A DNA stretch of 64,000 nucleotides from Tetradesmus obliquus (lineage: Eukaryota > Chlorophyta > Chlorophyceae > Sphaeropleales > Scenedesmaceae), in the NCBI GenBank assembly GCA_030272155.1, contig CP126203.1, forward strand, positions 2,976,001 to 3,040,000, read 5' to 3'. The translations under genes were made by a program, and so were the position numbers. Under the pieces are notes generated by a model, which ran no database searches, was not told the origin of the DNA, and worked only from the letters and a program-made list of their open reading frames with translations. Shown piece after piece: positions 6,001 to 64,000 of the stretch; the first letter of the stretch is position 1; each line of letters opens with the position of its first letter.

Positions 6001-9000
6001 TCAACCAGACATTTCCCACGTACACGGTAAGTGTCTTGCTGGGAAGCATTGCCAGTCAATCCATGTAACGGCCCACATCCAGAACATTTACGAGTTCAAC
6101 TTAGGTGCATATTGTACAGGTCTGTACCTAACAGTGTCAGATGCATGCTTAGATGCATGCCGTGTAGGTCTGTACCTAACCAACTCCCTCTCTAGAGAGG
6201 GACAACACCACTTCCATGCAGAACTGCCCACCACAGATGCACCCAAGCAGCGCCCGCACAGCAGAAACCAGGCTTGCAGCTGCAATGAACACATCATGCA
6301 GCACGCAGCATTACTGGCATGTTTGCGCCATGTGCTGGCTGGTTCTGGCGGGGTTGAGTGCTGTATTGTCTGCAACTTGGGCAGCTGAAGCCGTAAAGGG
6401 CGAGGCAGGCCAACGCTGCATATCTGCTGTTGTGCAGGTGTATCTGTGGGGTGATGCAGTGCCGGGATCTGACGGCCGTACAGCGTCAGTGACCTGCCCA
6501 AGCTCTCCAGGCATGGTGAGCACCACGCTACAGCAGATCTGCTCTAGAGCACATGCCGCGCCTCAACAATGGTGTTAGAACCCAGTTGGAGGCTGCATCT
6601 TGCATCTGCTGCTGTCCATCTGAATTCAGCGCTGCCTGGTGCTGTGGGTGCCTGCTTACGCTGCTTCTCCCTAGGCATGGTAAGCACTGCGTAGCATCCA
6701 CGCACCTGCTGCATCGCAGCATGACGTAGCACCTACTCACATACCAACGCAGGCTGCGCGCATCATATGCATCTGGTCAGCTTCGTGTCCTTTCCAGCTA
6801 GCAGCTGCAGAAGCCCTCTGAAGTTTCTGGATGACTAGTAATGTTGGTCCTGCTGCCGTGCCTGCAGGCAGCACAGCTGATGTCTGCAGCCATGGGGCCA
6901 GTTAATACCTTCGATGTGACAGTCAACGCGGGGCCCCAATACAGCACCGTTGCCTGCTCCGGCTCAACATGCAACCTGGATATCAGCTATTTTGCAAGGA
7001 CGTACGGAGGCTTGTCTTCGCCTGCAGGGCAGTTCTTGAAGGTTGTTGTGAAGTGCGCGTGCGGCCCGGGGTATCAAGCCATGACGCCTGCTGCAAACTC
7101 CAGCAGCAGCGGCAACACCACGTCATCCACCGGCTCTGCAAGCCTCACCTGCGCACCCTGTGGGGCCGGTTGGTACAGGTGCGGACCAGGCCAGCCTGGG
7201 CTATGTCAGAACACCACCACAACACGATGCTGCAGCCAGCGAGCACAACACGATGCTGCAGCCAGCGAGCGCATCACTCATCACTGCTTGTCATGCTGCA
7301 GCGAATAGTGTGGTGCAGCTGTGCTGGCCTCGTCTGCGAACGGTTCAGTGCGTGACCTGGCGAGTTCTGACAGTGGCGACATTGGTGTTTGCAGGGACGC
7401 TAGCATGGGTGACTGTGCGCCCTGTCCGTTGGGGTATCACCAATCTAATCAGGGCCAGGTGAGAGGAATGATATGATCTGATTTGGGAGGAATGATCGAT
7501 CTGATCAGGGGCACGTGAGAGGGCCAGGTGAGAGGAATGACGGAGCTGCATGTATCGGATACATTCTGGTGGGCGTTGATGATCCTGCAGCAGTGCTTGT
7601 AGCAGAAATGTGCTAAGCCATGCACATTTGAGAGGTACAAAAGCACCCTTCAGGTAATTACCACAAAGCTACTGCAGCAGCACCCAGCGCCACAGGCATT
7701 CAAGTGCAAAAGTTCATGTTTAGCTCACGCTTGCAGAGTGTGAGCCTGCCTTGCGCATCCATGATTACTACACAGCCGGTGCTCCCCCAGGGCTGTTGTA
7801 TGAGTAACTTTTGCAGCACACCCATGGCACAGCACTGACGTGACTGCACAAGATACTCTGACCACAGGGACTGCATGCTGCTGCGCAGCAGTATGCTTGG
7901 AAGCACTGCTGGCATCCTAGCACGTCAGTTGACTCCACGTAACAAATGTGCGCATGTTGCTCCATGCAATGCAGACTGCGTGCCTGCCTTGCCCAGCTGG
8001 TGCATTTGCCAATAAGACCGGCACCGCCAACTGCACCTTGTGCGCGGTTGGGACCTTCAGCACAGCTGTTGCTGCTGGCAACTCATCTCTGTGCCAGAGC
8101 TGCCCCATCAACACATACACAAAAAGCAACGGATCAACAGCATGCACGGTGCGTGCCTCATGCTGCTGCATGAGCTGCCATTGGGGTTGCCGCAAGGCAA
8201 CATGGCATGTTTCTGAAGCAGAAACGCTATGATTTCGAACATTTCTGGGGCTGTGCCACTTGCACACTTGCGGCGTCCCTGCAGCCCGCACCTGCGGTTG
8301 TAAGCAGTGCCTGTTACAGGGGCTGTAGCTGGGTGTGACTTCAAATCTTTGAACGCAGCAGCAGCTGGCAAGCTTTTGACGCAAGTTCGTTGCGAGCACT
8401 GCTCTGCAGCGACTTGGCCACAACTTGACGCCACACGCAGTGATGTTGTCAGTAGCGCATTTCGTTGTGATGTTACTCAGGAACTGCTTGAGCTGTGCCT
8501 CTGTCACTTCGGAAGGATAACAGATCGGCATCTGCTGTTCTGCTTGCAGGCTTGCGCTCTGGGGTGGTACACAAACAGCACCGGCACTGGCTCCAACTGC
8601 ACGGCCTGCGAGCCAGGAACCTACCGCGATGCAAGCATGCAGGCATGTGCAGCATGTCCGGACGGCACGTACAGCTCGCGCGGCAACAGCAGCTGCAGCC
8701 CAGTCCCACCAGGCTCCTGCGGCAGCTCTACTGATGTCAATGACCATGCAGAGCAATGTGGGTGGGGCACCTACACAAGCACTGCCAATGTGGCAGACTG
8801 CATCGTCTGCAACAGTAGCTACCCCTCTACGGCAAGGCTTGGCGCAAACGACTCCAATGCATGCACGCTGGCGAGCGAGACCTCAGTTTCAGCAGTGAAT
8901 TGGACGGACACTGCGCAGGCCGCGTACCCAAACAATTACAAAACCTACAATGCGGACTTGTGCGCAAAGTTTGTGGCTTCGTATGGCGGCAACTTCAGCG

Positions 9001-64000: not shown

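Follow-up and report, generated by a model that had tools for sequence, protein, structure and literature searches.

Why do fragments of exons recur so often in the introns that adjoin them in this part of the Tetradesmus obliquus genome? The window, a stretch of 64,000 nucleotides covering bases 2,976,001-3,040,000 of contig 13 (genome of 104.66 Mb, 17 contigs), was compared with itself, which gave 59 direct pairs and one inverted pair less than 3 kb apart at E<=1e-3, the direct pairs including multiple pairings per array and CTG repeats. A strict filter, requiring at least 85% identity over at least 28 bp, removing low complexity and leaving out window pairs that start in the transposons at 40.2-50.7 kb, retained 36 direct-repeat pairs. 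These overlapped 26 of the 49 predicted exons of at least 30 bp, some of which are probably copies called as exons. Sequence resampled from an order-1 Markov model, with one run per piece, yielded no pairs in any of the 26 pieces, one consisting wholly of N. The recurrence of exon fragments beside their own exons, as claimed by the first-pass annotation of this DNA, is thus real, and the wide spread of identities that it described was also borne out, with copies ranging from 69% to 100% amid diverged spacers. The first repeat that it placed, at 7451, is a 21-bp exact match to 7520; no gene could be modelled in the 1-16 kb part of the window.

Exon borders were taken from an ab initio gene finder trained on the same genome, with constrained training, the unconstrained version having settled on CAG repeats. 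The splice signals that it learned from the genome were CAG/GTGAG for donors and TGCAG/G for acceptors (the slash marks the junction). These signals, the GC content and the presence of a light-harvesting gene are in keeping with a green alga. Six spliced genes were modelled in the window by our reading of the predictions, with Pfam matches to Trypsin_2, UPRTase, Chloroa_b-bind, AAA_11/AAA_12 and Sec1: a trypsin-like protease, a light-harvesting (LHC) protein, a uracil phosphoribosyltransferase (UPRT), a Sec1 protein, a helicase, and an unnamed stretch that has no Pfam hit and is fused to the LHC and UPRT genes in the prediction. The helicase, for which Pfam itself gives AAA_11/AAA_12, is one that we take to be UPF1/SMUBP2-like. 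At least one copy was found in each of the six modelled genes, that of the LHC gene being an 80%-identity array at 25595-25896, below the strict cut. The copies and related features of the window are as follows.

16418-16586, minus strand: trypsin-like protease gene, 3' part of its last predicted exon (16674-16842) copied past the predicted stop; spacing 256, 92% identity (self-comparison, Pfam Trypsin_2).
25595-25896, minus strand: three-copy array of the LHC gene, unit about 115-125 bp, about 80% identity (self-comparison, Pfam Chloroa_b-bind).
29486-29534, minus strand: UPRT gene, copy of exon end 29712-29760; 94%, the match stopping 3 bp beyond the donor junction.
30093-30142, minus strand: UPRT gene, copy of exon end 30224-30273; 98%, spacing 131, stopping 2 bp beyond the donor junction.
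32407-32522, minus strand: copy of exon end 32582-32698; 89%, spacing 175.
33067-33503, minus strand: copies 33067-33115 and 33125-33283 around exon 33410-33608; 86%, spacings 126 and 220.
36659-37497, plus strand: Sec1 gene, orthodox tandem array with a 251-bp unit made up of exon end and intron; whole units 98% identical.
38252-38640, plus strand: Sec1 gene, 38252-38396 against 38496-38640; 95%, spacing 244.
38949-39883, plus strand: Sec1 gene, array with units of 170-212 bp, the consensus consisting of CTG repeats, acceptor and exon start (content read by eye).
39866-39984, plus strand: Sec1 exon, its 3' part together with 6 donor bases; regarded as the live exon.
39985-40100, plus strand: 116-bp spacer between the two identical Sec1 copies; a single genomic place found (genome search).
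40101-40219, plus strand: 119-bp copy of 39866-39984, 100% (119/119), identity ending 6 bp beyond the junction.
51137-51483, plus strand: Sec1 gene, exon-start copies upstream of exon 51409-51512; spacings 121 and 250.
52622-52967, plus strand: copy at 52883-52967, downstream of exon end 52622-52700; 91%, spacing 261.
53070-53430, plus strand: start of exon 53364-53557 copied twice upstream, at spacings of 134 and 118.
53429-53845, plus strand: copy at 53713-53845, downstream of exon end 53429-53561; 92%, spacing 284.
54059-54612, plus strand: exon-start copy upstream (54059-54100 to 54189-54230) and exon-end copy downstream (54284-54393 to 54503-54612).
58263-59087, plus strand: three-copy array of the helicase gene, steps of 253 and 271 bp.
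59247-59609, plus strand: array of the helicase gene, spacings 122 and 253.
62948-63166, plus strand: helicase gene, copy at 63139-63166, downstream of exon end 62948-62975; 93%.

Repeats of other kinds were also recorded. The Sec1 gene is split by about 10 kb of transposons, with nested retroelement material at 40232-50638 in which 45978-46853 matches 49096-49971 at 99.7% identity, 40232-40699 matches 49977-50441 at 97%, and a minus-strand frame of 919 codons (41529-44285) carries a reverse-transcriptase domain. A tRNA-Leu (cag) is predicted inside this region at 44742-44821 and a tRNA-Ser (gct) just past it at 50833-50916. Outside the modelled genes lie a 99-bp tandem repeat of 2.5 copies at 20962-21204 and, at 21789-22088, the pentamer TGTGC repeated in tandem about 58 times.

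The copies are tied to splice junctions. Taking the window together with the five copy-rich ("loaded") samples described below, 84 of 134 pairs contained a copy spanning a predicted splice junction, compared with 36.2 +/- 6.2 when pairs were shifted along the locus, and an alignment end fell within 9 bp of a junction in 72 of 134 (position-shifted controls, 23.5 +/- 5.4). Counted as exon-copy relations (rows, so that a single pair may count twice), 125 overlapped exons, 90 of them holding one exon edge, 15 both and 20 none. Exon-start copies lay upstream in 38 of 40 rows and exon-end copies downstream in 44 of 50, a count over window and samples that leaves out the 15 whole-exon rows and the 20 lying wholly within an exon; the rule previously proposed, that 5' copies lie upstream and 3' copies downstream, therefore holds. 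Genome-wide searches with protein-family models gave the same pattern independently of the gene finder, the clear cases being hand-picked and the others ambiguous in direction. An HSP70 gene on contig 17 has two partial copies of model positions 158-182 upstream of exon 159-224 at steps of about 130 bp, and another on contig 13 has two copies of 369-404 upstream of exon 370-432 at steps of about 157 bp; copies of the exon start were likewise found upstream in a kinesin on contig 2 (three) and a chaperonin on contig 16 (two).

Preferred distances were evident as well. Among 124 nearest spacings, 36 fell at 105-135 bp, 12 at 135-165, 13 at 165-225 and 32 at 225-285, giving modes at 105-135 and 225-285 bp, so that copies often sit about 120 or 245 bases from the exon. 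Array steps were 103-136 bp in L024, 133-143 and 106-149 bp in L030, and 123 and 120 bp in L025.

One account is tandem duplication with one break in the exon and one in the intron, selection keeping the intact exon, followed by neutral decay with no homogenisation. It is in keeping with the direction rule and the direct orientation, and duplication of whole units including intron is clear in some arrays, namely the orthodox exon-plus-intron arrays of the Sec1 gene (251 bp) and of L030, where acceptor flanks are shared. Such a process predicts long intron matches in young copies, but the best-preserved copies have the sharpest borders, which is the opposite of decay. At 94% identity or above, 23 of 27 rows had a match ending within 9 bp of the junction (exon-start 10/10, exon-end 13/17), falling to 23 of 33 at 90-94% and 15 of 30 at 85-90%; simulated plain tandem duplication gave 0/110, 4/102 and 11/173 for the same classes, in a simulation of a constrained exon with neutral copies, covering the exon-end type only and using rates of our own choosing. 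The four long rows at 94% or above had intron matches of 19, 32, 136 and 136 bp and include the 251-bp Sec1 array, counted twice. Five alignments that were displayed show exon fragments of 97-100% identity ending 2-6 bp into the intron, with flanks that appear to be wholly or almost wholly unrelated; in the Sec1 gene the match runs over 119 of 119 bases and is followed by 116 bp without one. Borders of this kind call for a process beyond duplication and decay. Plain duplication with decay is already disfavoured for most copies, and as a general explanation we consider it unlikely.

If whole units were duplicated, the spacer should resemble the far flank of the exon. Faint homology of this kind, measured against shuffles, exceeded z=2 in 13 of the 35 single-gap cases and had p<0.05 in 11 of 35, leaving 22 of 35 at or below z=2. 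Mean flank z over rising identity classes was 3.5, 2.0 and 2.0 against shuffles and 3.1, 1.8 and 1.5 when the locus's other introns served as the comparison, and mean end-to-end flank identity, against that of shuffles, was 0.611/0.560 in the 85-90% class and 0.586/0.591 and 0.532/0.543 in the higher classes. As flank identity rises above shuffles only in the 85-90% class, for most copies we infer a tandem origin rather than read it from the flanks. One case, at 6212 in L032, has an exon part that is identical over 42 of 42 bases and a flank whose end-to-end alignment reaches 0.64 compared with 0.52 for shuffles; it has the look of an old tandem unit whose exon part has been renewed. The tandem-duplication mechanism offered by the first-pass annotation is accordingly upheld in part: direct orientation, the direction rule and faint flank homology in about a third of cases speak for it, but plain decay is insufficient to account for the borders.

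Direct copying of exon ends, up to the junction, into a nearby intron from an RNA, cDNA or splicing-intermediate template would account for the sharp splice-side borders of the best copies and for the absence of clear flank homology from most of them. The faint homology of intronic parts in about a third of cases counts against it, as does the informal impression that no copy runs into the next exon. The exon-side ends are a further difficulty, since none of the splice-like motifs tried was found there above expectation by more than a chance-sized margin. An impression from single alignments, that these ends fall on cryptic GCAG or GTGAG, was rejected by the motif count, with GCAG observed 3 times against 6.2 expected (27 exon-start cases) and GTGAG once against 0.3 (31 exon-end cases). 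Ends without motif enrichment are as random breakpoints predict, and direct copying appears as unlikely as plain duplication. Two other sources were considered for the 100% Sec1 copy and its surroundings. A paralogous source was rejected, the search made having found two genomic places only, 39866-39984 and 40101-40219, and an introner, transposon insertion or filler was rejected for the single spacer searched, 39985-40100, which is unique in the genome and so not an introner there.

Purifying selection on the nucleotide sequence itself might instead keep the copies, which could serve, for instance, as decoys for splicing or as RNA elements of another kind, and the exon-matching parts are indeed far better kept than their flanks. 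The pattern of change argues otherwise. Exon-copy mismatches by codon position were 94/59/207, and the coding constraint on copies that this third-position excess had suggested was dropped on the copy-copy count of 43/30/49, which spreads over all codon positions. Of the changes polarised at sites with two or more copies, 82 fell within copies compared with 14 on the exon side, and 10 of 12 indels were not multiples of three and would break the frame. Splice dinucleotides were kept at 36 of 38 sites for AG and 27 of 38 for GT (63 of 76 together), which by a hand estimate is near the retention left by about 91% identity, with GT somewhat lower; neither clear purging nor clear preservation of the competing splice sites is apparent from these sequences. 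Few or no copies occur in 18 of 24 loci, which also tells against selection. The copies thus look unconstrained, with no sign of coding or splice-site selection, and selective maintenance seems distinctly unlikely. Nor do they resemble alternative tandem exons, for which coding constraint and both splice sites would be expected, as no coding constraint was found and only 15 of 125 rows held both edges.

An assembly artefact or false local duplication is highly improbable, for although assemblers are known to go wrong over short tandem copies that are almost identical, identities from 69% to 100%, diverged spacers and a rule related to splicing are all against it.

The explanation that we prefer, and hold with middling confidence, combines tandem duplication in domains with re-homogenisation of the exon-matching parts by the live exon. 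Certain chromosomal domains would undergo frequent short tandem duplication with unit lengths near 120 bp and twice that. Within genes, the events that survive would be those leaving the exon and its splice sites intact, and because only these survive, exon-start copies would come to lie upstream and exon-end copies downstream, inside introns. The copies would then be neutral and decay, except that the exon-matching part may occasionally be overwritten, through short-tract gene conversion or a switch of template from one direct repeat to another some 120 bp away. The intronic part would drift beyond recognition because selection holds neither side constant. The outcome would be fresh-looking exon fragments, bounded at the splice junction, amid intron that looks unrelated.

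Overwriting of copies by the exon is favoured with moderate confidence; both the overwriting and its molecular route are what we infer from the patterns described. Eleven arrays were examined by the four-gamete test, seven being uninformative, and all four gametes were present at 6 of 9 informative site pairs (L024 1/1, L034 5/6, and 0/1 in each of two L030 arrays). The four-way combinations in L024 and L034, which lend support to overwriting in two of the four informative arrays, fit no duplication tree without recombination or recurrent change. Clumping of mismatches in exon-copy pairs was not significant (p<0.05 in 3 of 35 rows; Fisher p=0.14), which counts against conversion, since conversion tracts might clump mismatches. 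Matching islands of 40-60 bp are also short for ordinary homologous conversion, a further point against overwriting.

A bolder version seems rather doubtful: an exon-templated process, possibly involving RNA or cDNA, may repeatedly write the ends of live exons into adjoining introns up to the junction, overwriting older copies, in defined domains.

How far the pattern extends was assessed in 26 sampled loci of 10 kb, from which L019, which is all N, and L013 and L023, which are satellite-like and without a predicted exon, were dropped. Twenty-four of the 60 places of a preplanned grid were sampled and 21 were usable, four of them loaded (L024, L025, L030 and L032); one of two extra loci chosen on contig 13 was also loaded (L034). 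Exons with a copy numbered 72 of 123 in the six loaded loci, window included, and 7 of 206 in the 18 others, a difference with a Fisher p of about 1e-30 between classes that were set after the counts had been seen. None of the nine contig 1 samples with predicted exons was loaded. The claim that nearly every gene carries such copies therefore describes the window well, but does not extend to the genome, where 18 of 24 loci (window included) are almost without them. In the protein-family searches, nearby match pairs sharing at least 20 model positions were found at no fewer than 4 of 11 loci for TCP1 and 3 of 35 for kinesin, and nearby pairs counted by eye at no fewer than 3 of 9 for HSP70 (one maybe an alignment overlap) and 1 of 4 for Sec1, all of these being lower bounds because the search scores the best candidates only.

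Loaded and other loci were similar in GC3 (0.734 and 0.745, p=0.92) and did not differ significantly in intron length (331 and 277, p=0.064). Intron GC was 0.550 in loaded loci compared with 0.560 in others (p=0.003), and exon length 126.5 compared with 169 (p=0.0003), the shorter exons perhaps arising because copies get called as exons. We suggest that the loaded loci may be chromosomal domains with a cause of their own. L013 (C1:4.5 Mb) and L023 (C2:4.5 Mb) have low GC (0.49 and 0.48) and many local repeats, and are possibly satellite or centromere-like DNA. At L024:8535-9036, in a gene that we take to be of SNF2 type, predicted repeated exons share a near-identical stretch of 25 residues with introns of about 60 bp between them; in this gene model they are probably copies mistaken for exons.

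Several ingredients are known already, namely short tandem duplication, partial exon duplication and gene conversion. Tandem or internal exon duplication, in which exon sequence is duplicated next to itself within a gene, was reportedly treated by Gao and Lynch in 2009. Tandem exon duplication involves whole exons usable as alternatives, whereas those of the alga are mostly partial exons with one splice side and without coding constraint. Short tandem duplications can arise from the repair of breaks or paired nicks, and the available part of one source describes patch-mediated break repair and fill-in by CST-guided Pol alpha-primase (PMC8355091). The local, short, direct duplications outlined there are like ours and such repair is a plausible source of the units of about 120 bp; that part of the account concerns duplication formation, whereas the alga also has arrays, modes of spacing, a division into loaded and unloaded loci, and copies bounded at the splice junction. 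A potato RdRp case (PMC4974935), as far as its available part relates, likewise involves tandem duplication of exon sequence tolerated through splicing, but there a new intron came from the duplication, while here existing introns apparently receive exon ends. Tandem repeats of Chlamydomonas and Volvox are densest in introns and concentrated near intron-exon junctions (PMC3887541); the available part of that paper names short motifs and makes no mention of exon copies, which is what the repeats of the alga are.

Among the titles and beginnings of abstracts listed by searches of the open-licence PMC literature, no description of splice-bounded exon copies in introns was found, and we did not find the combination of density, preferred sizes, locus contrast and splice-bounded borders described in the open-licence literature searched. 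Unit sizes are preferred, and the on/off pattern among loci points to a local mutational cause. There is a practical consequence for annotation, as the gene finder called some copies exons and annotation pipelines may do the same. This one genome allows the first stages by which exons duplicate and introns grow to be counted in bulk instead of singly, and if exon-templated writing should prove true, the introns in such domains of this alga would be a renewable archive of exon ends.
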